NCBI GenBank assembly: GCA_004296455.1
Contig: AP018280.1
Span: 3,844,001-3,908,000 of the forward strand
Direction of reading: 5' to 3'
Origin: Calothrix sp. NIES-4101
GTDB taxonomy: Bacteria > Cyanobacteriota > Cyanobacteriia > Cyanobacteriales > Nostocaceae
DNA length: 64,000 nucleotides
Shown: one piece after another, positions 44,547-64,000 of the stretch
Layout: the number at the start of each line of letters is the position of its first letter
Numbering within the stretch: position 1 is the first letter of the stretch
Program-made: the position numbers and the translations under genes
Notes under the pieces: generated by a model
Told to the model about the DNA's origin: nothing
Seen by the model: only the letters and a program-made list of their open reading frames with translations
Database searches by the model: none

Positions 44547-46085
44547 TTAGGAATAGCGAAACTTAACATCGAGAATCTGTCCTTTGGCAACCTGGACAGA
44601 TTTTAAACAACCCTGTAATAATTCCCGCTTATCTTCAATATCCAGTCTTTCCCAGTATATGGGGTTAGCAAAAGCTGCAACAATTCGATTTTTATGAACT
44701 AAATAACTTAGCTGCTGACTTTTTGTATCGGAAATAATACTAGCTATCTGTTGATTAATTAAATCGATCGCTTGATGAATTGCTGGGTTATTACCGGGAA
44801 TTAAACTTAACTGTCTGAGTTGTTGTTTGAGTGCGACTACTTCTTCTGATTCATTAATAATATTACTCTCAAATGATAAATCAGCGATCGCAGCTACTGA
44901 GTCGGCTTTTTGACATAGTAAAGGGATTAATTGTTGCTCAATTTGCATATCATTAATCATCTTTTTATTGGCACAGAGACGATTTTTATTATAGTTATTA
45001 CACTGATAGTAACTAATTTTTCTATCTGCTTTTTTACGGTATTGAGAAGTTTGAATAAACATCGAACTCCCACAACAACCACAATAGATTAAACCAGTAA
45101 AAATATTATTGATTTGGGTAGGTTGGCTACACCAAGCATTATTTCTATTTTTATGGGTAATTGTGAAAATTTCTTCCCTCTCATCCATTGTGATTAATGT
45201 TTGTTCGGGATGGGTATGCCAAACTATATTTTCTTCTTGATAAACCGAACTCCATTTGTTACGCTTTCTTTGATCATAGGCAGTACCACCAGCTAAAACG
45301 GGATTTTTGAACCATAGTTGCAATCCTTTGGCAGTCCATCCCAAACCAGTATTTTTGCTTTTTGGCTTCGTCAAAGCAGTACTAATATCATCACCAATAT
45401 CAATTAAATTACTACTTTCTTTGTCCTTAAAAGCAGTAATATTGCGAGTTACACCAAAGTAAGCATTTAACTGTACCGCAGTCTGTCGAAATGACTTAGC
45501 CTGGAAATAGGTGTCAACAACCAACCTCGCTACCTGTGAACATGTATATTCTTTTCTGTCTTCCAGGGTGCAGACAATGGGAGTATGGTCTAACTCGTAG
45601 CGATCGCCTTCTCTAACAAACCCAAAAGGTACAATATAATGGGGCTTTTTATTTCTGCGTCGCACTTCCAAATCCTTAGTCACCCGCAGCGATAACATTT
45701 CTGTTTCAAACTCAGCCGCAATCACCCGGATATTGGTTGCTAACTTTCCTCCCACTGTCTCTAAATCAAAACTGTCGTCCAAAGCCTCCATTTTGACATG
45801 ATGCTGCTGCAAAACATGCACAAGTTGACTAAATAAAACAATTGAACTAGTCAAGCGATCGATTCGTGTAAATATCAATTTTTGAATCGTACCCACTGGA
45901 GAAGACTTGACATAATCAATTAACCGTAATAGCCCATCCCGACGATTATTTGTGCGCTGGGCGATATCATAAAATATTTTTTTCGCCCCAGCATCTCGTA
46001 ATCTGCGGATTTGCTTTGTGAGCGCATTCCCATCTGATTCTTGCTTTTCCGATGATTCCCTGGCATATCCGATAACTTCGCCCAT
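44547..46085 (-). CDS. Large serine recombinase, XisF-like
   Basis: 512 residues. The resolvase domain begins MGEVIGYARESSEKQESDGN (serine nucleophile in ESS), followed by KLIFTRIDRLTSSIVLFSQL and AEFETEMLSLRVTKDLEVRR. The recombinase domain spans about 160-300 (KGLQLWFKNPVLAGGTAYDQ). A zinc ribbon follows (IYCGCCGSSMF with YQCNNYNKNRLCANKK), then a coiled coil. Length and layout resemble XisF, which excises the fdxN element during heterocyst development, but general transposon or phage integrases look alike. No XisH or XisI genes are nearby. The 126-bp upstream gap holds only its promoter. Confidence 0.75.
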   Translation of the reverse strand: MGEVIGYARESSEKQESDGNALTKQIRRLRDAGAKKIFYDIAQRTNNRRDGLLRLIDYVKSSPVGTIQKLIFTRIDRLTSSIVLFSQLVHVLQQHHVKMEALDDSFDLETVGGKLATNIRVIAAEFETEMLSLRVTKDLEVRRRNKKPHYIVPFGFVREGDRYELDHTPIVCTLEDRKEYTCSQVARLVVDTYFQAKSFRQTAVQLNAYFGVTRNITAFKDKESSNLIDIGDDISTALTKPKSKNTGLGWTAKGLQLWFKNPVLAGGTAYDQRKRNKWSSVYQEENIVWHTHPEQTLITMDEREEIFTITHKNRNNAWCSQPTQINNIFTGLIYCGCCGSSMFIQTSQYRKKADRKISYYQCNNYNKNRLCANKKMINDMQIEQQLIPLLCQKADSVAAIADLSFESNIINESEEVVALKQQLRQLSLIPGNNPAIHQAIDLINQQIASIISDTKSQQLSYLVHKNRIVAAFANPIYWERLDIEDKRELLQGCLKSVQVAKGQILDVKFRYS

Positions 46086-51300: not shown

Positions 51301-51427
51301 TACATCGATTGAGTGGAAATGTGTGAAAAAACTTGCCTCCGGTAAATGGCAATGGCAAACAGGAGATAATAACCGTATCCAAAGTAAAAATATTACTTAT
51401 TCAGGTTCCAGCCAGGGAAAATTGTAG
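48386..51427 (+). CDS. Exported GH31 alpha-glucosidase with C-terminal starch-binding domain
   Basis: 1013 residues from ATG 48386 (a TTG one codon earlier is less likely). A signal peptide covers about 1-30 (LSHLIFLPLSFLSLSNPALAE-like hydrophobic stretch ending ALA). The GH31 catalytic barrel shows KFPVDGFVLDLQWFGG, the nucleophile region GHWTDLGEPEKYDG and the acid/base region YGAAMWSGDIGSN. Beta-sandwich domains follow, and the last about 100 residues (NFVCDNAWTNSGESIHVVG, QLGNWDINKA, IEWKCVKK) form a CBM20-type starch-binding module. It would release glucose or related sugars from alpha-glucans outside the cell, next to glcP. A terminator follows. Confidence 0.88.
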   Translation: MKKIMKNVMTNISHLIFLPLSFLSLSNPALAEIKRVKFSHNSQDLIIEVLDDDLIHFELSAQGKSSPIDAPLQTSPMIAHKNYSGASAYSLNQNIIETKEIHVKINPNNLCISLTDKVKKAALTTICPQDLQQDWKGLTLTPEKIENIYGLGQQFKKLGSADGDWLSHGVRAEQPQGQEQAHGNGFMPFGSAGMVGNVQFPIMYAVGKNNLNYALFLDNPYKQRWDFNSTPWKVQMWGDQIRFYVMTGKDLPNLRQDYLELVGKPPVPPKKAFGLWVSEFGYKNWNQVKTLRDGLRKDKFPVDGFVLDLQWFGGIIPNSPDSRMGALDWDEKSNDGNDFEFPNPGKEIADFLADGIGLVAIEESYINKNTSTYAAMKAANMLAYSKTNNQCDATKQSNPVILKNWFGEGGMVDWSDRAAGEWVHDNRRFPNLVQKGILGHWTDLGEPEKYDGNACYEGIEVAAGKRKNQHGDIHNLYNLFWNQSIYEGYFRDRQKINRRPFIVTRSGAPGIQRYGAAMWSGDIGSNLELLATHLNSQMHMSFSGIDYYGSDIGGFRREGIPYNENHSGNLQYEAEMYTQWFANGAWFDVPIRPHTDNSFQTEKRYETSPNLVGDKQINVANLRQRYELTPYYYSLAYRAFLQAEPLIAPLVFYFQNDPQVRNIGHQKLIGKDMMVGVVAKHGEYERDVYLPQGKWINYHTNQWLNSSGDWLKSFPTYINGILRLPTFVRSGAIIPLMYVDADTKNTFGDRLDKTQRDELILKVYPDEKQNEFTLYEDDGETISYGRNKEARYQTRITNIKNQKLANIATVTISKSIGTYKNAIQQRNNLVQLIVENAKATTVSMNGRKLTQFNSKADFEATESGWYNAGENLILAKSGIQNTQQEKKFEFTLTSIPVTTSINFVCDNAWTNSGESIHVVGNQPQLGNWDINKAQALSANINYAYIHNPPPNHNGIGAKTPKWTGLISGLSTNTSIEWKCVKKLASGKWQWQTGDNNRIQSKNITYSGSSQGKL

Positions 51428-52213
51428 AAGACTTATTATCACAATGCTCAAATTAAGCTTTTGAGCATTTTTTGAGCATTTTATTATATGTTTGCCATAT
51501 ATCGGATAGAAAGCATCATACGCCAGATTAATTCCACCGATACTTTTGATGGCAACAATTTCTCCTTTTTGTAATAGAGTACAAACAGCATCTATTTCAT
51601 CCAGCATCGAAAACATGGGAACTGTAAAAGGCTTGCCATCAGCCCGTTCTAGCCATGCCTTGGGACCACAAACATGGCAAGCTGTTGGCTGGGCATGGAA
51701 ACGACGGTTTGTGACATCTTTATAATCGCGATCGCATGTTGGGCACATCGCAAATTCTGCCATGCTAGTATTGGTGCGATCGTAGGGTATGGAACGAATA
51801 ATACTTAGGCGTGGGCCACAGTGAGTACAATTAGTAAAAGGATAGCGAAACCAACGACTGTAGGGATCAAAAATTTCGGCTTGACATTGGGGACAAGTGG
51901 CAGCATCAGCAGCAATTTGAGTATTAATTACATTATGAATACTGTTAGAAATGACAAAGTCATCGAAATTCAATTCGCCTATATATTGGGTTCGAGTTAT
52001 TTCATTTATTTTTGCTAATGGCGGGCATTCTTGTTGTAATTGACGAACAAATTCAGTTATCTTATCCTCAGTCCCTAAGATTTTAATTAATACTCCTTTC
52101 CCATCATTATAAACTTCACCCTTCAAGCCTAATGCTTTAGCTATACGATAAACATTAGGTCTAAATCCCACACCTTGAACCACTCCATCAACTCGAATTT
52201 CTTCAGTTATCAT
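51401..52213 (-). pseudogene. hypF: HypF, N-terminal fragment
   Basis: HypF makes the thiocarbamate precursor of the CN ligands of [NiFe]-hydrogenase and is normally about 750-780 residues. Here residues 1-234 match: the acylphosphatase domain (RVDGVVQGVGFRPNVYRIA), four zinc-binding CxxC pairs (C107/C110, C129/C132, C157/C160, C179/C182), and the start of the YrdC-like domain (GEIVAIKSIGGINLAYDA). After 51512 the homology ends; a 36-residue unrelated tail runs to a stop at 51401, overlapping the GH31 3' end. The carbamoyl-transferase part is absent from the window, so this copy cannot function. Alternatives: a breakpoint or an inserted DNA element. Confidence 0.85.
51443..51474 (+). terminator. 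Intrinsic terminator after GH31 gene
   Basis: AATGCTCAAA (51443-51452) and TTTGAGCATT (51460-51469) form a perfect 10-bp stem with a 7-nt loop, followed by T-run. It starts 16 bp after the GH31 stop. It lies within the non-homologous tail of the convergent hypF fragment. The stem's right half is partly repeated at 51472-51480. Confidence 0.8.
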
Positions 52214-55571: not shown

Positions 55572-55871
55572 ATGGCAAACGTACTATGGTTGCAAGGTGG
55601 AGCCTGTAGTGGTAACACCATCTCATTTTTAAATGCTGAGGAGCCAACAGTCTGCGATTTAATTGCCGATTTTGGAATTAATATACTTTGGCATCCTTCA
55701 CTAGGATTAGAATTAGGTGAAAATTTGCAAGCTCTGTTGCGAGATTGCATTTCTGGTAAAACACCTTTAGATATCCTCGTATTTGAAGGCACAGTAGTTA
55801 ACGCTCCCAATGGCACTGGTCATTGGAATCGCTTTGCCAATCGTCCTAAAAGCCCACAAGCACCGTTGTGA
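55572..55871 (+). pseudogene. hupS: Uptake hydrogenase small subunit HupS, interrupted after codon 92
   Basis: HupS carries three iron-sulfur clusters and passes electrons from H2 to the photosynthetic or respiratory chain; it is normally about 320 residues. The first 92 codons (55572-55847) are highly conserved: LWLQGGACSGNTISFLNAEE with the first cluster cysteine, then VFEGTVVNAPNGTGHWNRF and ANRP. At 55848 the match ends and seven unrelated codons lead to TGA 55869-55871. The rest of hupS is nowhere in the window. A tyrosine recombinase gene starts 110 bp past the junction, as at the borders of nif and hup excision elements. The gene may therefore be split rather than dead. Confidence 0.88.
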
Positions 55872-55957
55872 ATGACTTGTATTTCAAGTATTTCAGTGTT
55901 CAAAGTTGGTCATTCGCTGACACAGTAGTACAAATATAGTCACGATTTTAGGCACAT

Positions 55958-57106
55958 ATGGGACTAGATATCGAGTGGGAGTTGCAACAATTGAACTCGC
56001 GGTTAAAGGCAGGGGGGACAAGGGTGACGGTGGAATCACGGGGGAAATCGTTGTTATTGCGGGGCACATTTCCGCCAAAACCTCATTCCCAGAGAGATAA
56101 ACCTTACCAGCAACGCTTATTTTTAGGGTTTAAGGCAAGTTATGCAGGATTGCGGACATCAGAACAGAAGGCAAAGATTATTAGTGCCCAACTGGAATTA
56201 GGAACTTTTGATTGGGCTGATTGGTTGGAGAAAGGGGAGCCGCAATTGTTAGAATCTGTATCTTTTTGGCTCGAGAAGTTTGAGGCTTACCATTGGAATA
56301 AAGTTGAGAAAAATCGCAAGTCGCTCCGAACTTGGGAAGATTCGTATTTGAGAGCTTTTGCAAAATTTCCTAACCAAAATGAACCTCTATCCTTAACTTT
56401 AATACTTGAAGCGATCGCAACCACTAAACCTGATACCAAAACCCGCCAAATCGTTTGTCATGGCATGTGGAAGTTAGCTACATTCGCAGGAATTACTGGT
56501 GTGGAAAAGATTCGGGAGTTGACGGGTGGTTATTCGCCGAAGTCAGTCAACCCTAGAACTTTGCCTTCTGACGAGACAATAGCAACTGCGGTAAATTCAA
56601 TTAAACATCCCGGTTGGCGATGGTTGGTGGGAATGTTGGCTACTTACGGATTGCGATCGCATGAAGTGTTTAGTTTGGATATGTCTGAGTTCCCTATTGT
56701 TCGCGTGTCAGAGGATACCAAGACGGGAGAACGGATTGTTTATCCTTTGTATCCTGAATGGGCAGATGTTTGGAAATTGGACAAAGTCACTCTTCCCCCA
56801 ATATCCCAAAACTACGACGGGAAAAAAACACCAGGACAGAGAGTCGCTAGGTGGTTTTGGGATAGTCAGCTGAGTTTTCGTGCCTATGATTTAAGGCATT
56901 CGTATTCTCGTAGGTGTTTTGAGTTTGATATACCCACCAACCGGGCTGCAAAGTTGATGGGACATAGCGAGTCGATTCACTGCCAAACATACCGAGCTTG
57001 GATCGATGAAAAATACTATCGATCCAAATTTGAACTTGATATCTTTGGGGCAGGGAAACCACAAGCACCTAACGTTGATCTGCTGGAGTACAACGCCACT
57101 CGATAA
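55958..57106 (+). CDS. XisA/XisC-type tyrosine recombinase
   Basis: 382 residues. The catalytic set reads R233 (GLRSHE), Y310 and R313 (YDLRHS), H336 (GHSES) and Y345 (QTYRAW). Position 310 is tyrosine where most tyrosine recombinases have histidine in the HxxR motif; XisA and XisC share this substitution, so it is a subfamily mark. XisA excises the nifD element and XisC the hupL element in heterocysts, each encoded just inside the element border. Here the gene begins about 110 bp inside the presumed hupS border. Length is in the XisA range and no defect is visible. Confidence 0.85.
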   Translation: MGLDIEWELQQLNSRLKAGGTRVTVESRGKSLLLRGTFPPKPHSQRDKPYQQRLFLGFKASYAGLRTSEQKAKIISAQLELGTFDWADWLEKGEPQLLESVSFWLEKFEAYHWNKVEKNRKSLRTWEDSYLRAFAKFPNQNEPLSLTLILEAIATTKPDTKTRQIVCHGMWKLATFAGITGVEKIRELTGGYSPKSVNPRTLPSDETIATAVNSIKHPGWRWLVGMLATYGLRSHEVFSLDMSEFPIVRVSEDTKTGERIVYPLYPEWADVWKLDKVTLPPISQNYDGKKTPGQRVARWFWDSQLSFRAYDLRHSYSRRCFEFDIPTNRAAKLMGHSESIHCQTYRAWIDEKYYRSKFELDIFGAGKPQAPNVDLLEYNATR

Positions 57107-57329
57107 CGGCTGGCAAATTTATTTTTATACTTCTTAACTTGGAGTTGGAACGAGCATCGTCAATGAAGTGAATGCCCTCTACCCAGTCACCTGAATCAAT
57201 CCGTCTCATGATTGATTTTCTAGAGAAACCTTTGCCCAACTTTTCGCCAGTTTGGGCAATTGTAAGTAAGTCTTCGGGCTTGATAGTTGGCTTATTTTTT
57301 AATTTCATGTATCTTGCTGGAGCGCTCAT
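57069..57329 (-). CDS. Excisionase-like small protein
   Basis: 86 residues. The segment EKLGKGFSRKSIMRRIDSGD followed by WVEGIHFID matches the pattern of recombination directionality factors (HTH then W-x-x-G-x-H). It converges on the recombinase gene and overlaps its 3' end by 38 bp, as excisionase and integrase genes often do in compact elements. It could instead be a small regulator. If the pair is active it would control excision from hupS. Confidence 0.6.
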   Translation of the reverse strand: MSAPARYMKLKNKPTIKPEDLLTIAQTGEKLGKGFSRKSIMRRIDSGDWVEGIHFIDDARSNSKLRSIKINLPAVIEWRCTPADQR

Positions 57330-57822
57330 TCTAGCTTAGCTAGATTTTGAAGAAGTTTAGTTACCTGCGATCGCAATTGGAGAACAGAAAGATATTTCTC
57401 TAGCTATATCAATTTTTTATATTAGTTAAGCCACTATGTTGAATCTGTTGATTTATTGTGATTAACTGCTTTTTTTATGAATGATTGTACTGCTCTAAAA
57501 GCCGAGTGGTGCTTGGAATACAACTAAAGAAAGAATTTATGAATTAATTAGAGATATCAAGGAAGCAATTGTTTAAGTTTTTGGGCTCTTCGGCAAGTTT
57601 TATGGAGCTTGAGGTTTTTTTGCAGTAAAACCCTTACAAAACAATGATTACAAGCAACTATGATACTTTTTGAGGCTAAATTCCTATGTAATAAGGCTTT
57701 CAAGGATTTTTAGCTAAGTTTTCCATAAAAAGAACTGAAGAGCCAGTTTTTGGAAATCATTACGTAACCACTTAGCTCAATTAGTGAGAGAATTTTTGGT
57801 GTTAGCCAACTCAAAATTTCTT
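57330..57822. other. Gene-poor region with possible coding remnant
   Basis: 493 bp between the excisionase-like gene and the split hydrolase. A short frame ending near 57575 (WNTTKERIYELIRDIKEAIV) looks like a protein C-terminus without its start, possibly a remnant. Low-complexity A/T otherwise; one HIP1 octamer near 57368. I see no complete gene. Confidence 0.35.
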
Positions 57823-58282
57823 ATGTATCAACATAGCATCAGTTTTTTATTGACAATTTCGCTAAGCACAAACTTGCTGTTTCCGCATTCCTTAGCAGTA
57901 GCCGATTTTAAAGATCAAAAACAAATCAAAGCTGAAATTCCTACCCCAGCGATATCAATGACTACCAAAGCTGCTTTAGAAAGATTATTTACTAGTGAAC
58001 AAATACAGACTGAATGGTTTGCGCCAGAATTTTTAGCTCAAGTTCCTATAGAACAGGTGCGGAAGATAATTACAGAGATAAAGAGTCAACTGGGAAGCTA
58101 TCAAGCTGTAGAAAAAAGCGATCAAGATTACTTGGTTGTTTTCAGCCAAGGCTCAGTTCCAACTAAAATAGTTCTCAATCCTAAAGGGCAAATTTCCGGG
58201 TTGTTGTTCCAGTCACCTCAAGCCAAAGTCGCTAGTTTAGAAGCAGCAATTACTCAATTTAAGTCTTTACCCGGTAAGGTTA

Positions 58283-59581
58283 GGATCGTGGATTAAATAA
58301 GGTGTAATACTGCCAATAATATCAGTACACTAGAAGGGTAAATTGAGAACTGGTAAATGATGCACCCTTACCCTGGTGAAATTGAAGTTCAAATGCAACG
58401 ATATTATGAATCGTTGTCGGAGAAGGATTGCCGCCGATATGCAGCAATTGAAGCAGTAAAATTAGGGTACGGGGGACAGGCATACATCCGTCGCTTGCTG
58501 GGATGCCATCACGAAACCTTACAATTAGGCTTGCGAGAACTTGAGGACGAAACGGCGCTTGGGCAGGAGAGGATTCGCCAACCCGGAGGTGGACGGAAAT
58601 CAGCCTTCGAGACAATTGTTGGATTAGACGAGGCGTTTTTGCGAGTGTTGGAGAGGCACACAGCAGGTTCGCCGATGGATGAAAGTGTCAAGTGGACCAA
58701 TCTCAAGCGTCATGAGATTGCAGGATTGCTGGGAAATGAAGGAATCGAAGTGAGTGTGACAGTGGTAGACCAGTTGTTGGAGAAATATAACTTTCGTAAA
58801 CGTAAAGCAGTAAAGACCCTGGCAACAGGAGAGAATCAATATCGCAACGAGCAATTTGAGACGATTGACCAACTTAAGCACTCTTATCAAACGGCAGGTA
58901 ATCCGGTCATGAGTATGGACACCAAAAAAAAGAATTAATTGGGCAGTTATACCGGGAGGGACAACTATACACTCAAGAAACGATAGAGGTGTTTGACCAT
59001 GATTGGCCAACGCTTGCGACTGGAGTTGCCATTCCCCATGGGCTGTACGATATAACAGACAATGTGGGTTATATCCAGATTGGCATCAGCCACGATACCA
59101 GTGAATTAGCCTGTGACTCAATTCGCTACTGGTGGAACACCTATGGTAAGACGCGTTATTCTTTGGCAAATTCAATTTTGCTGTTATGTGATGGTGGCGG
59201 TAGCAATAGCTCTCGCTATTACATCTTCAAACAGGACTTACAGGCATTAGTTAATGAACTGGGCATCGAAATTCGTATCGCTCATTATCCGCCCTACACC
59301 TCCAAGTATAATCCGATTGAGCATCGTTTGTTTCCTCATATCTCTCGCGTTTGTCAGGGGATGATTTTTGAGAGTATCCAGACTGTAAAAGACTTAATGG
59401 CAAAGGCAACCACTCGCACAGGACTCAAAGTTTTTACAACGATTCTCGATAAAACCTATCAAACGGGTCGAAAAGTGGCTGAAGATTTCAAATCAAACAT
59501 GAAGATTGTTTTTGATGAATTTTTGCCCCAATGGAATTACACCGCTAAACCAGAATTACACTTTATTTAATCCACGATCCT
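58283..59581 (+). mobile_element. ISAzo13/IS630-type insertion sequence
   Basis: About 1.30 kb, bounded by inverted repeats that start GGATCGTGGATTAAATAA and continue (A/G)GTGTAAT, 25-26 of 27 matching. The target is TA, duplicated at 58281-58282 and 59582-59583, as in the IS630/Tc1/mariner group. It interrupts a serine hydrolase gene. The transposase is in two frames joined by a slippery A-run. Confidence 0.9.
58357..59570 (+). CDS. ISAzo13-type transposase needing a -1 frameshift
   Basis: The first frame runs 58357-58938 (193 residues), with helix-turn-helix features (KLGYGGQAYIRRLLGCHHET) and the first catalytic Asp in PVMSMDTKKK. The second frame (58989 onward, 193 residues) has LLCDGGGSNSSRYY (second Asp) and NPIEHRLFPH (Glu). 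In the zero frame ACC AAA AAA AAG AAT TAA includes the heptamer A AAA AAG (58926-58932). A -1 slip there reads KELIGQLYREGQLYTQ into the second frame without a stop. Without the shift the protein would lack its last two catalytic residues. The same heptamer is used by the other IS in this window. Confidence 0.8.
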
Positions 59582-60511
59582 TAGTGTTTTAATCAGGGAA
59601 GGCAAAACAACAAAAGCCGCCTTAAATCCGCAAACACCATTGGCAGTTGGTTCCGCCTTCAAATTAGCCGTACTCAAAGCATTGAAATTAGAAATTGCGT
59701 CCGGGAAACGAAGTTGGAAGGATGTAGTTGAGTTACGATCGCAGAATAAAAGTTTACCATCAGGAATATTACAAACATGGGCTGATGGCTCCTACTTAAC
59801 ACTACAAACGCTGGCAGCTTTGATGATTTCGATTAGCGACAATACAGCAACAGATACGTTAATTAATTTAGTTGGAAAACAGAAAATTGAGTCGATATCT
59901 CCTCGTAATCGTCCTTTTTTAACTACCCGTGAATTGTTTGTTTTAAAAGGTAAAGAAAATCGAGATTTACTCAAACGTTATCAAACTGGTAATGAAACTC
60001 AACGTCGAGCAACATTAAAAGAATTAACGAAAAAACCGCTTCCTAATGTAAGTGATTTTGAGGGAGTTAATCCAGTTGCCCTTGACGTGGAATGGTTTTT
60101 TACAGCTTCCGAACTTTGCGGATTAATGGAAGAAGTTGCTGATTTGCCCCTGATGAGTATTAATCCAGGTGTTGCAAATTCTCAAGATTGGCAAAAGGTG
60201 GCATTTAAAGGTGGTTCCGAGCCTGGTGTTCTAAATATGACCACTTGGTTGCAGGCGAAAAATGGTAAAAATTACTGTGTGGTTGCCACTTGGAATAACA
60301 GCAACGCACCTGTAGAACAGTCAAAATTTATAGGATTGTACACTGGTATTATCGCTCAACTGGCAAGGAGTAAGTAAACCGCGATCAGCAGAGCTTCATG
60401 CCAAAGGCATATGGCGTTACCAATGGGAAATTTATGCTAGTAAAAAGCGCCTCTAACATGGTTTGATGGAAACTCCCCAACTTTTTCTGAATTCTGTTGG
60501 CGAGGAAATAG

Positions 60512-60877
60512 TTATTTTGAGAGGGTGCTAAAAGCTTTGATTTGTTCAAATTCTTTAGCCCGCTTTTGTATTTGATCACCAATGCGATCGCAAACTAATT
60601 CACATAGATCAAAAATTACAGGGTCACTGATAGAATAGTAGACACTAACTCCCTTGGGTTGACGGGACACCAAACCCGCTTGAGTCAAAACTTTTAAATG
60701 TTTTGATAAATTTGCCTGTCCCAAACCAGTCGCTTCACCCATTTCGGTAACGTTCATCGGTCCGGTTCTCAGACAACTCAAAATCTGTAAGCGACTAGTT
60801 TCAGAAAGTATCTTGAAATATTCCGCAACGGGAGCAAGCAATTCTGGGGAATTTTGTTGAGAAAGACTCTTTGACAT
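60512..60877 (-). CDS. ArsR family transcriptional regulator
   Basis: 121 residues. The winged-helix core is TEMGEATGLGQANLSKHLKV, followed by AGLVSRQPKGVSVYYSISD. Cysteines are C35 (ILSCLRTG) and C92/C96 (FDLCELVCDRI), a pattern like the two-cysteine BigR/SqrR sub-branch that senses sulfide or redox changes, rather than the CxC-type metal sensors. It is divergent from hemF. A 12-mer, CTATATAGTTAT, occurs upstream of both genes, making it a candidate binding site. Its signal could relate to oxygen or heme metabolism; this is inferred from neighbours. Confidence 0.85.
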   Translation of the reverse strand: MSKSLSQQNSPELLAPVAEYFKILSETSRLQILSCLRTGPMNVTEMGEATGLGQANLSKHLKVLTQAGLVSRQPKGVSVYYSISDPVIFDLCELVCDRIGDQIQKRAKEFEQIKAFSTLSK

Positions 60878-60908
60878 AAAGATTAATCTAATTACACCAA
60901 TTGTATTA

Positions 60909-61096
60909 CTATATAGTTATTTTAGTCTCCCACTCCATCGTCGGTACAGTTTAGTTTGTCTATTCACATTTGCGTTTAGTATTTGCGTGAAATAGATGCC
61001 TCATTTTATACACTTAGACTGTACCGGGATTTTTAATCAAGTTTATTAAGTTTTGATACTTGTTTGCATTCTCTATTTATATAGCTATATAGTTAT
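60909..61096. promoter_or_regulatory. Shared CTATATAGTTAT sites between arsR-type gene and hemF
   Basis: The 12-mer CTATATAGTTAT occurs at 60909-60920, 32 bp before the ArsR start, and again at 61085-61096, 48 bp before the hemF ATG. The second copy lies in a longer near-palindrome TATAGCTATATAGTTATA. The exact repetition in both promoters is good evidence for one DNA-binding protein, most simply the ArsR product (autoregulation plus control of hemF). Confidence 0.6.
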
Positions 61097-61143
61097 AAAA
61101 ATAAAGTAACCATTCTGGCTTTAGAGGTAGAGGAGAATACTGC

Positions 61144-62187
61144 ATGGGTCGTCATTCAGAAAATCAAACACAATTACTTAAACTTTCTGCTAGTCAAGTA
61201 CCAGCAGATTCGCAGCAACGGGCAAAGCAATTTGTTTTGAATTTACAGGATGAAATTTGCACAGCACTAGAAGAACTTGATGGGAAAGCTCGCTTTCACG
61301 AAGACTGTTGGCAAAGAGCAGAAGGTGGACAAGGACGTACCCGTGTGATTCGAGATGGACGGGTATTTGAACAGGGAGGTGTGAATTTTTCTGAAGTATG
61401 GGGAGATAGTTTACCTCCTGCAATTTTGGCTCAACGTCCGGAAGCTGCCGGACATAGTTTTTTTGTGACGGGGACTTCAATGGTGTTGCATCCTCGCAAT
61501 CCCTACGTGCCGACGGTACACCTGAATTACCGATATTTTGAAGCTGGTCCAATTTGGTGGTTTGGTGGAGGTGCTGATTTAACACCATATTATCCCTTTG
61601 CAGAGGATGCGATTCATTTTCACCAAACATTAAAGGGTGCTTGCGATCGCTCTCATCCAGAGTACTATCCAACCTTCAAACGTTGGTGTGATGAATATTT
61701 TTATTTACCGCATCGTCAAGAACAACGAGGCATTGGTGGTATTTTCTTTGACTATCAGGATGCTAGTAGTAAGCTTTATGTCGGTTGTCAACCAGATAGT
61801 CAAGCAGCACTCTATAGTCAGCAAGTTGGGACAGTATCTCGTAGCTGGGAAGATATTTTTGCTTTTGTCCAGTCTTGCGGTCATGCATTTTTACCCGCTT
61901 ATTTACCGATTGTGCAGCGACGACAAGAAATAGAATATAGCGATCGCGAACGTCAATTTCAACTTTACCGTCGAGGTCGTTATGTTGAGTTTAATTTGGT
62001 ATACGACCGGGGAACGGTATTCGGTCTACAAACCAATGGCAGAGCAGAATCAATTCTCATGTCTTTGCCACCTCTGACACGTTGGGAATATGGCTACCAA
62101 ACACAACCGGGAAGCCCAGAAGCACAACTAACTGAATTTTTCCTACAACCCCAAGATTGGGCTAATGGGTGTTTGACCCAGAAATAA
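61144..62187 (+). CDS. hemF: Oxygen-dependent coproporphyrinogen III oxidase
   Basis: 347 residues. It converts coproporphyrinogen III to protoporphyrinogen IX with O2. Family signatures are [37 protein letters not shown], the [15 protein letters not shown] motif with HFH, and [17 protein letters not shown]; the C-terminal [20 protein letters not shown]. Complete and intact. The ATG follows a GGAG-type site. It is divergent from the ArsR gene and followed by a heme oxygenase gene 261 bp on, so tetrapyrrole enzymes cluster here. Being O2-dependent, it would not work in anoxic heterocysts. Confidence 0.95.
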
Positions 62188-62218
62188 CAACCTCATACCA
62201 ATTCACAATTCGCAATAC

Positions 62219-62280
62219 TCGCTGTCGCGTAGGCGCAAGCCTTCTCGAAGAGTGTACGCCGTTGGCGTTGTCGAAGACTA
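62219..62280. repeat. Cyanobacterial dispersed palindromic repeat
   Basis: The sequence CGCTGTCGCGTAGGCGCAAG then CCTTCTCGAAGAGTG and GCCGTTGGCGTTGTCGAAGA has several overlapping short palindromes and is of the type repeated across Nostocales genomes. It lies between hemF and the heme oxygenase gene. Confidence 0.55.
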
Positions 62281-62448
62281 GCAAGCTACGCAATTAAAAA
62301 AAACTGAGATGCAGCAAAGCTTTCACGATTTACATCTGTATCAGATTTTTCGTGAAATGGTATCACTCTCGCTTTTGCACATACTGTATCCAGCACAATA
62401 GTCAAAAAGGCACTACTTATTTTACGTATTTTGTAGGAGGTATTCACC

Positions 62449-63210
62449 ATGAGCAGCCATTTAGATATTTGCTTGCGAGAAGGTACCAAAGATTCGCACA
62501 CAATGGCGGAAAATACTGCATTTATGAAATGCTTTCTCAAAGGGATAGTAGAAAGAAGTTTTTTTCGGAAGTTACTAGCAGATTTATATTTTGTCTACAG
62601 CGCCTTAGAGGAAGAATTACAGCGCAATCAGGAACACTGCGTCATGGGGTTAATTTATTTCCCCGAACTCAATCGCAAAACAAATTTAGAGAAAGATTTA
62701 GCTTTTTATTATGGTGAAAATTGGCAAGAAGAGATTTCGCCTTCTTCAGCAGGTCAGGTATATGTTAATCGGATTCGCGAAATTGCCAATACACAACCGG
62801 AATTGCTGATTGCTCATGCTTATACTCGTTACATGGGAGATTTATCAGGTGGACAAGCATTAAAAAAAATTGCTCGTTCGGCAATGGATTTGCCAGATGA
62901 CCAGGGTACAGCTATGCATGAATTTGAGCAACTCTCGACACCTGAAGCGAAACGAGTATTTAAGGATAAATACCGTCAAGCGTTGAATTCTTTGCCTCTA
63001 GATGAGGCTATGATTGAGAAGATTGTCAACGAGGCAAATTATGCTTTTGCTTTGAATAGAGACGTATTTCACGAACTCGAAGCAGATGTGAAAGCTGCGA
63101 TCGGCGAACATGTTTTTGACTTGATTACCCGTCAAGATCGGGTTGGAAGTACAGAGCGTCATTCTCCTAAATCAGATGTAGAAGTGATAACACCTGAATA
63201 TAGTATTTAA
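62449..63210 (+). CDS. Heme oxygenase (biliverdin-forming)
   Basis: 253 residues. It opens heme to biliverdin, CO and iron using ferredoxin; biliverdin is the precursor of phycobilins. The proximal histidine is in GTKDSHTMAENTAFMKCFLK. The distal helix is YTRYMGDLSGGQALKKIA, and the central stretch LYFVYSALEEEL is the family helix. A strong GGAGG site lies about 12 bases before the ATG. It could be the O2-related isoform Ho2 or the constitutive Ho1; I cannot tell by reading. It likely belongs with hemF under the ArsR-type regulator. Confidence 0.93.
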   Translation: MSSHLDICLREGTKDSHTMAENTAFMKCFLKGIVERSFFRKLLADLYFVYSALEEELQRNQEHCVMGLIYFPELNRKTNLEKDLAFYYGENWQEEISPSSAGQVYVNRIREIANTQPELLIAHAYTRYMGDLSGGQALKKIARSAMDLPDDQGTAMHEFEQLSTPEAKRVFKDKYRQALNSLPLDEAMIEKIVNEANYAFALNRDVFHELEADVKAAIGEHVFDLITRQDRVGSTERHSPKSDVEVITPEYSI

Positions 63211-63545
63211 TGCCAAAATACTGCCTACTCTATAAGATACAGCCATTCAACGTAAGTCTGAGGGAGTAGGCTGAGTTTTTTGCCTGGTTCAGTAGGCTTT
63301 GTCTCAATCGCCAAACTTTCTGTGGGCGGTATTTTGGGTGTTAAAAAAAGACTTTTGTATTCAGATAGAGATGCTGTTTGAAGTTACACCTGCGGAACAA
63401 TTCATCATCCGCAATATCGCATTGCTGCCGATGCCCAGCAAATTTTTCAAAGCTATTTAATTTGGGTGCGACTCTTTTAGTAGTACAAAGTATGGTATAA
63501 GAGTAATAGAAGACAAGTCAACCAGAGTAATGTTTCAGCCCAAAA
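63211..63545. other. Gene-free region between heme oxygenase and transposase
   Basis: 335 bp. A short frame near 63395-63480 reads TCGTIHHPQYRIAADAQQIF then QSYLIWVRLF, which resembles the end of a coding sequence, but no start or partner is found. The left end of the ISKra4-type element may be here; I could not locate its inverted repeat. Confidence 0.35.
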
Positions 63546-64000
63546 ATGGAAAAGATGCATCCTTGGTTGTCAAAAAAGAAAAACAGGGATAAGCACGGAC
63601 ATATGCAAGCATCTACATCAAATCCAGGGATGTCTTGGGAAGAAGCACGAGAAGTATTTGAAGAAATAGTTGGTTGGCTGGACTCAGATAGTATTTGTGG
63701 GTTGGAGCATGGAGAAATAGAAAGTAAGTTGCTTGATAATGGATATGAACTACTTAGAAGGCTGTTACAAGGGTACTTTGATAAGCGTTTAACAAAAGGA
63801 GAAAAAGCCAATGCCAAGCGAATGGCAACGGTAGCTTCAGTTTACACAATCAACCCCTTTGTTCGCACAGTTGAGCAAATAGTTAACCCATCCGATAAGG
63901 ATAAGAAAATAAAGCGTCCTAAGCCTATTGGGAAAAGGGTTTGGGCTTCTGTTGCCAAGGAACCAGAAGTCGTCATTAAAGAGGCTTTCGATGAGGTATT
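63546..64000 (+). CDS. ISKra4-type transposase, N-terminal part cut by window edge
   Basis: At least 151 codons from ATG 63546, running past the window end. The stretches WEEAREVFEEIVGWLDSD, GLEHGEIESKLLDNGYELLR and RLLQGYFDKRL, followed by MATVASVYTINPFVRTVEQI, are the N-terminal pattern of ISKra4-family transposases. The catalytic core is outside the window. The exact start is uncertain because an A-rich stretch and other ATGs precede. Confidence 0.7.
   Translation, partial: MEKMHPWLSKKKNRDKHGHMQASTSNPGMSWEEAREVFEEIVGWLDSDSICGLEHGEIESKLLDNGYELLRRLLQGYFDKRLTKGEKANAKRMATVASVYTINPFVRTVEQIVNPSDKDKKIKRPKPIGKRVWASVAKEPEVVIKEAFDEV

Follow-up and report, generated by a model that had tools for sequence, protein, structure and literature searches.

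What kind of break does the hupS gene at position 55572 carry? Its resemblance to other hupS genes stops abruptly within the first hundred codons, and a recombinase gene begins just behind the break. The gene could be the victim of an insertion, a relic in decay, or one half of a gene that is rejoined when a resident element leaves. Excision of elements from hupL, nifD and fdxN in heterocysts has been reported, and the accessible text of the 2016 survey by Hilton, Meeks and Zehr counts four hupS elements in two variants (PMC4874684). The locus belongs to Calothrix sp. NIES-4101 (7.59-Mb genome, six contigs). The window is the whole stretch of 64,000 nucleotides that was analysed (C1:3844001-3908000, +), and coordinates outside it follow the numbering of contig C1.

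A hupS gene in two parts

The genome has two hupS genes. hupS1 (C1:4126544, 320 codons) is intact and shares 77% identity with hupS2 across codons 1-93, and hupS2, the gene in the window, is interrupted. A HupS search of the whole genome, with the intact HupS2 of genome G020 as query, led to three places: hupS1, the 5' part of hupS2 and its 3' part. The 5' part (codons 1-89; 55572-55837, +) was delimited by similarity to the G020 protein, to which codons 1-92 are 92% identical, and by comparison of the repeats. The initial annotation had placed the end of the match near codon 92; full-length HupS alignment indeed reaches codon 94 or 92, and past the repeat the frame enters element DNA and meets a stop at 55871. 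The 3' part that it predicted on the plus strand downstream was also found, 25.3 kb away and outside the window (codons 84-320; C1:3925139-3925849, +), with 86% identity and no internal stop.

Both joints carry the same exact 19-bp direct repeat (55819-55837, the attL core, and C1:3925137-3925155, which would be window coordinate 81137), within the range of about 10-20 bp that had been anticipated. Neither of the two outcomes named in advance as refuting, a missing 3' fragment or the lack of a direct repeat common to the two ends, thus arose. In the part of the genome examined, the sequence occurs twice, on the plus strand only, and about 1e-6 chance 19-bp matches are expected between the two regions compared (429 x 501 nt). 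Because codons 84-320 of hupS2 were found on the same strand and the repeat is exact at both joints, chance is excluded as an explanation. The enclosed element is 25,318 bp long and ends at C1:3925136, with 55819-64000 as its portion within the window; it had rightly been expected to exceed 8 kb and to have its far border beyond the window.

Joined at the repeat, hupS2 measures 963 nt, which is 320 amino acids and a stop, the length of intact genes. The joined protein retains 209 of the 212 columns that are invariant among 30 intact HupS of 320 aa (one of 31 collected was dropped for its 329 aligned letters), where leave-one-out controls break 0-6, and all 11 invariant cysteines are present. 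At the level of sequence, hupS2 is a complete gene divided between two repeats. The locus has three sequence features of interruption elements in the sense of Hilton et al. (2016), namely two parts that form a full gene, exact repeats inside the gene at both ends, and a recombinase near a border.

The recombinase and its convergent partner

The recombinase gene (55958-57106, +) starts 120 bp past the left repeat, just beyond the break as first described. Its 382-aa product is a tyrosine recombinase and a candidate integrase and excision enzyme, assigned to a clade of tRNA-Cys integrases by homology and a tree, with a Pfam Phage_integrase match below cut-off. A convergent gene (57069-57329, -) overlaps its 3' end, also in agreement with the initial annotation, and encodes an excisionase-like protein of 86 aa, a candidate recombination directionality factor. 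The protein itself resembles PHROG excisionases weakly (E 0.15), as does its orthologue from Tolypothrix sp. FACHB-123 (E 0.077); the orthologue from a metagenome contig, L225, matches them at E 0.0035. No match to it was found in Pfam or in plasmids, and a structure model built from two sequences (mean pLDDT 42.5) was too poor for use. Among 217 family genomes, 18 hold a total of 20 matches at E <= 1e-5, and 18 of these 20 lie convergent with a recombinase of the same clade at a distance of at most 6 kb; the exceptions are in G175 and, at a contig end, in G001. The small convergent gene most likely encodes a directionality factor that favours excision.

Prophages of the lambda type carry int/xis modules, and the present element resembles them in pairing an integrase with an excisionase-like gene and in having candidate arm sites at both ends. 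The repeat search placed one such candidate arm-type integrase site, 13 bp long, immediately before the recombinase start (55945-55957), and it recurs near the inner right end (C1:3925067). FACHB-123 and L225 have conserved a part of it, TTTAGGCAC, at the corresponding position.

The presence of tyrosine in place of histidine had initially been taken for a XisA/XisC signature. The residue is there, in the motif YDLRH at 310-314, and Y310-D-L-R313 is kept in three aligned orthologues. However, 36 of 40 aligned recombinases have tyrosine at this position (the other four have leucine), tRNA-Cys-linked integrases included, and YxxR was therefore rejected as proof of a developmental recombinase. 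The comparison with XisC and its hupL element is similarly divided. Both systems combine a tyrosine recombinase with YxLRH, direct repeats and an uptake-hydrogenase target, but the enzyme is only about 27% identical to the hupL recombinase of the same genome and has 382 rather than 495 aa, and the gene, repeat and orientation differ. An excisionase-like convergent partner is a feature of the hupS2 recombinase, unlike the XisC/hupL element.

Relatives of the recombinase

At least 50 of the 217 family genomes have a recombinase match at E <= 1e-60 (in some genomes, the best 8 of a larger number of candidates were scored), and among the matches listed every one other than the genome's own is at most 49% identical. 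Relatives also occur in three plasmid records (34-36% identity), and none was found by sequence among solved structures (E up to 1) or in the phage collection (E up to 1e-10). Eighteen of the family loci were fetched (L166-L183). In 13 of them, a complete tRNA-Cys(GCA) gene with the orientation of the recombinase starts 237-353 nt upstream of the match; two others, L174 (G219) and L180 (G104), have the 3' half of tRNA-Cys from the anticodon arm on, and L181-L183 are without tRNA-Cys. The anticodon arm AGGTCTGCAAAACCTCC is common to the complete and half tRNA-Cys of G219, and the half in G104 is nearly the same. These two junctions put the exchange point within the anticodon arm. A likeness between this core, AGGTCTGCAAAACCTCC, and the hupS core was judged by eye and found unconvincing. 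In one further genome (L125, G220), ARAGORN calls a tRNA-Ser(GCT) beside the integrase at the tRNA-Cys position; an altered anticodon or an error in sequencing could account for this call.

In a tree of 40 recombinases, from which L225 and XisA were left out, both hupS enzymes fall within a 22-row clade (support 100/98) together with tRNA-Cys-associated integrases, with which the recombinase shares its ancestry. The topology is compatible with the hupS pair being either nested in the tRNA-Cys clade or sister to the rest of it. The XisC-type enzyme of the same genome does not group with them; it is several well-supported branches away, on the side chosen as outgroup. The tRNA-Cys integrases share with the hupS2 system a clade, 43-49% identity, a convergent excisionase-like gene, and a recombinase in the same orientation just behind its target. 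In contrast, their target tRNA stays complete, whereas here a protein gene is cut. No tRNA gene was found in the NIES-4101 locus L025 or in L089 (FACHB-123) or L225, which separates these hupS elements from integration at tRNA-Cys, and none accompanies a second copy of the clade behind hupS2 (L026). That copy, whose match begins at residue 63, lies in a stretch behind a XisF gene (L026:8993-19186, C1:3926993-3937186). Other genes of the stretch encode an excisionase-like protein, a protein whose ParB matches stay below the curated cut-offs, and a 1032-aa protein that matches no family.

Cargo of the element

Behind the recombinase and its partner, which occupy the left end, the element carries a probable beta-lactamase-family gene (57784-60377, +) whose two halves flank an insertion sequence encoding a transposase of the ISAzo13 type (58357-59570). 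Of these halves, 57784-58296 has no significant family alone and 59640-60377 matches Beta-lactamase2. Family searches confirmed the three genes that had initially been assigned to the element: an ArsR-family regulator (60512-60877, -), hemF for oxygen-dependent coproporphyrinogen oxidase (61144-62187, +), and a heme oxygenase (62449-63210, +). The start of an ISKra4-family transposase gene (63546-64000, +) runs past the window. Additionally, AcsF-type (aerobic) and BchE-type (anaerobic) Mg-protoporphyrin ester cyclases are both encoded on the element (L025:10989-13765, C1:3908989-3911765), the former being one of three copies in the genome. A NACHT protein and two insertion sequences are among the cargo, and four CRISPR-like 46-nt repeats with a spacing of 73-78 nt lie inside the element (L025:18766-19037).

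An ORF cut at the locus edge (L026:2-454) resembles endolysin families of PHROGs, with E 6.8e-26 for the best match. Among the element ORFs searched, none was recognised as a phage portal, head or tail gene; the PHROG comparison covered 10 cargo ORFs together with the recombinase and its small partner, and the remaining ORFs were searched with Pfam and NCBIfam only. Within that scope, the element in NIES-4101 lacks the structural genes of a complete prophage.

The same junction in two other sequences

A scan of 84,980 species genomes, which detects close relatives only, returned a single relative of the recombinase, that of Tolypothrix sp. FACHB-123 (L089), at 80% identity. In this genome, the recombinase follows hupS codons 16-89 and is accompanied by an excisionase-like gene that is 79% identical. 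The other end of this hupS piece, at codon 15-16, borders on a XisF-like serine recombinase gene, so that hupS is cut twice in FACHB-123. Similarly, L225 (IMGVR_UViG_3300036045_000523), a viral-labelled metagenome contig of 66 kb, has hupS codons 13-88 followed by the recombinase (67% identity) and the excisionase-like gene (59%). These codons are flanked by two elements, the upstream one with a match to a replication initiation protein. Roughly 10 and 13 kb from the junction, the element at codon 88 has ORFs with PHROG matches to a portal (E 2.7e-67) and a head maturation protease (E 6e-57); Pfam did not recognise either protein. No further hupS piece lies between the junction and these ORFs in L225, which ends inside the element, and the contig may be chimeric. 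These matches are a point in common with prophages. Rescanning the viral collection with an alignment of the three recombinases returned the same contig only.

The left ends of all three sequences can be aligned. This bears on whether the NIES-4101 assembly wrongly joins unrelated stretches inside hupS. Only this genome, and therefore a single assembly, shows the right border and the 3' part of hupS; apart from this, no point in favour of such an artefact was found. Against it, L089 and L225 each show the left junction independently, with the recombinase behind hupS after about codon 89, and both hupS2 parts are on a single 7.2-Mb contig. An assembly artefact is thus extremely improbable.

Insertion sites in hupS across the family

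HupS matches were obtained in at least 214 of the 217 family genomes. Piece-by-piece inspection covered 35 genomes, mostly those with several or weak matches, 32 of which matched; genomes with a single strong match were taken as unsplit, and the second matches of G076, G078, G079, G128 and G221 were left out. Splits were found at codons 15-20 (n=20), 203-210 (n=2) and 276-282 (n=4), some genes being cut at two sites. None of the 35 inspected genomes, from 217 surveyed, is split at codons 84-92, the site used in NIES-4101.

Among the loci fetched, 11 of 12 genomes with the codon-15 site have a serine recombinase there that shares 65-93% identity with the FACHB-123 enzyme, and none was seen in G200. 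The site near codon 206 has a XisC-like enzyme (43% to the NIES-4101 one; G215 only, as G219 was not fetched), and the site near codon 280 a XisF-like enzyme (35-36%; G068, G107 and G213, with G214 not fetched). The combination of the codon 84-92 site with the present recombinase was seen only in NIES-4101, FACHB-123 and L225. As a separate observation, a second hupS copy in G230 (C1:4554932-4555690, L200) stops matching at codon 254-256, and no remainder of it was found.

hupS interruption elements are already known as a kind. Those covered in the accessible text of the 2016 survey likewise lie inside hupS, with direct repeats at both ends and a recombinase just inside the border (PMC4874684), and the codon 84-89 site may be one of the two variants counted there. 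In the literature search, 'hupS' together with 'interruption element' occurred in that paper only.

Selection on hupS2 and the case for excision

Comparison with the orphan hupS2 of G013 gave a dN/dS of 0.055 for the gene as a whole; the values were 0.033 in the 5' part and 0.063 in the 3' part. In comparisons with G020, G221, hupS1 and G005, dN is 0.078-0.104, with dS from 1.4 to saturation. Over the 74 codons shared with FACHB-123, 39.5 of 51.7 synonymous and 12.5 of 170.3 non-synonymous sites differ (dN 0.077, synonymous sites saturated). These substitution patterns indicate that purifying selection acts on both parts of hupS2. The recombinase (0.085) and the excisionase-like gene (0.067) are also under purifying selection.

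The partner gene has fared differently. The genome has one hupL, which is itself in two parts; beyond that, hupL was matched only weakly, at 36% and 33%, within a 486-aa frame (matches at C1:2865857-2867221). Behind hupS2, a 23-aa C-terminal remnant of hupL2 persists, with 52% identity (E 6e-4) and an internal stop. In G013, hupL2 is down to 21 + 27 codons and hupS2 is intact. That hupS2 is kept while hupL2 decays argues that hupS2 is still in use, and HupS2 perhaps works with HupL1. Part of the selection on hupS2 could predate the element if NIES-4101, FACHB-123 and L225 acquired theirs in separate insertions: a shared site could stem from repeated insertion by a site-specific integrase.

Decay had been offered from the start as an alternative for this locus. 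In its full form, this alternative holds that hupS2 is a pseudogene in decay which a rearrangement has split, and that the recombinase next to it is unrelated. The reduction of hupL2 to a C-terminal remnant fits this, as does the nearby hypF, which is split as well, with its halves in opposite orientation. Decay partly describes the operon, which has lost hupL2. For hupS2 itself it was rejected on the exact 19-bp repeat and the intact joined frame of 320 codons; purifying selection speaks against it too, as do the recombinase orthologues found at this codon in two further sequences. We regard it as very improbable.

The main rival is an insertion that merely inactivates, because hupS2 has lost hupL2 and an intact hupS1 exists. 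Here, an ordinary integrative element or defective prophage would have disabled a redundant gene, and excision would perhaps be rare and take place outside heterocyst development. The recombinase's clade is otherwise mostly tRNA-Cys-associated, and one element at the site, that of L225, has matches to a phage portal and head protease, both of which agree with this scenario. Several observations do not. Although hupL2 has decayed, both parts of hupS2 still have an open frame, dN/dS is near 0.05 and every invariant cysteine is intact, and the left junction is common to three diverged sequences. Moreover, the family has four different cut sites in hupS, two of which come with serine recombinases; this is compatible with a gene that can bear interruption because it is mended when needed. 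An inactivating insertion is unlikely on balance, although it deserves to be taken seriously.

The explanation that we consider probable is a gene-interrupting integrative element in hupS2, whose excision would rejoin the gene, most likely in heterocysts. The integrative element would sit at codons 83-89, and the tyrosine recombinase would recombine the 19-bp cores of attL and attR, releasing a 25.3-kb circle and leaving an intact hupS2 of 320 codons; catalysis by this enzyme, the functions given to the small protein and to the arm sites, and heterocyst timing are presumed. Site-specific excision by this recombinase is very likely. The explanation as a whole is favoured by the far hupS part on the same strand, the exact repeats, the restored frame, the selection on hupS2, the conserved pair of recombinase and excisionase-like gene, the shared left junction, and the hupL element and interrupted TPR gene in the same hup cluster. 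The close kinship of the recombinase with tRNA-Cys-associated integrases, rather than with known developmental enzymes, counts against it.

The uptake hydrogenase works beside nitrogenase. Heterocysts are the most likely place of excision because the target is an uptake-hydrogenase gene, as for the hupL and nifD elements; by this analogy, and given the retained gene, excision there is likely. On the other side, hupS1 is intact and hupS2 is without hupL2, so hupS2 may be dispensable in heterocysts. No NtcA site (GTAN8TAC) was found in the four regions scanned (near hupS2, at the recombinase, at the right end, and upstream of hupS1), which says little because the region upstream of hupS1 is without one too.

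Other interruptions around the hup genes

An element of about 5.8 kb (C1:4128238 to C1:4134007) interrupts hupL1; it has a XisC-like recombinase and a 17-bp repeat, CCACAGCAGTTATATGG. This contains the 16-bp hupL repeat of Anabaena PCC 7120, printed as CACAGCAGTTATATGG in the accessible text of its source (PMC3610870). A TPR gene is also divided. Residues 222-317 are encoded beside hupS2 (L026:8663-8950, C1:3926663-3926950) and residues 7-221 beside hupS1 (C1:4125151-4125795), 198 kb apart in the same orientation, with a XisF-type recombinase at the border; the element ends have the inverted sequence TTTAGTTACATCACTATA, with GGTA in common. The hup cluster thus holds three elements, and removal of all three would line up hupS2 with the TPR gene, hupS1 and hupL1.

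Two further observations concern the surroundings. hypF is split near codon 228 (window 51401-52213, -, and C1:3709390-3710793, +; 186 kb apart in opposite orientation), and its joint has an exact 13-bp repeat, ATTAATCTGGCGT, at which recombination would invert rather than excise. The window also holds a XisF-type serine recombinase gene (44547-46085, -), one of 12 matches in the genome above the family cut-off.

Origin and implications

The origin of heterocyst interruption elements is described as unclear in the accessible text of the 2016 survey, where virus or phage remnants are hypothesised (PMC4874684). Within the reach of our searches, the rare insertion site, the ancestry shared with tRNA-Cys integrases, the conserved candidate directionality factor and the phage-gene element at the same codon are new. 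They raise a more specific possibility, to which we give about an even chance: that a lineage of temperate phages uses hupS codon 88 as its attachment site, and that the NIES-4101 element is a domesticated, capsid-less descendant taking part in a heterocyst-specific rearrangement. Such a descendant would have kept int, xis and att sites, and its integrase would share ancestry with the tRNA-Cys integrases.

A single integrase lineage connects tRNA-Cys-associated integration with two hupS elements, one bearing phage head genes and the other, which has further interruption elements as neighbours, showing no recognised capsid gene. That an environmental sequence carries an element with phage genes at this position of hupS suggests how removable elements arise. 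If this is true, a phage in a gene used only by a terminal, non-dividing cell could be removed in that cell while the lineage keeps the phage. The small convergent gene would then be the dedicated directionality factor of a developmental tyrosine recombinase, and, as this candidate is conserved, the switching of direction is directly testable in a two-protein assay. Removal of the element together with the neighbouring hupL and TPR elements would rebuild the whole hup cluster.
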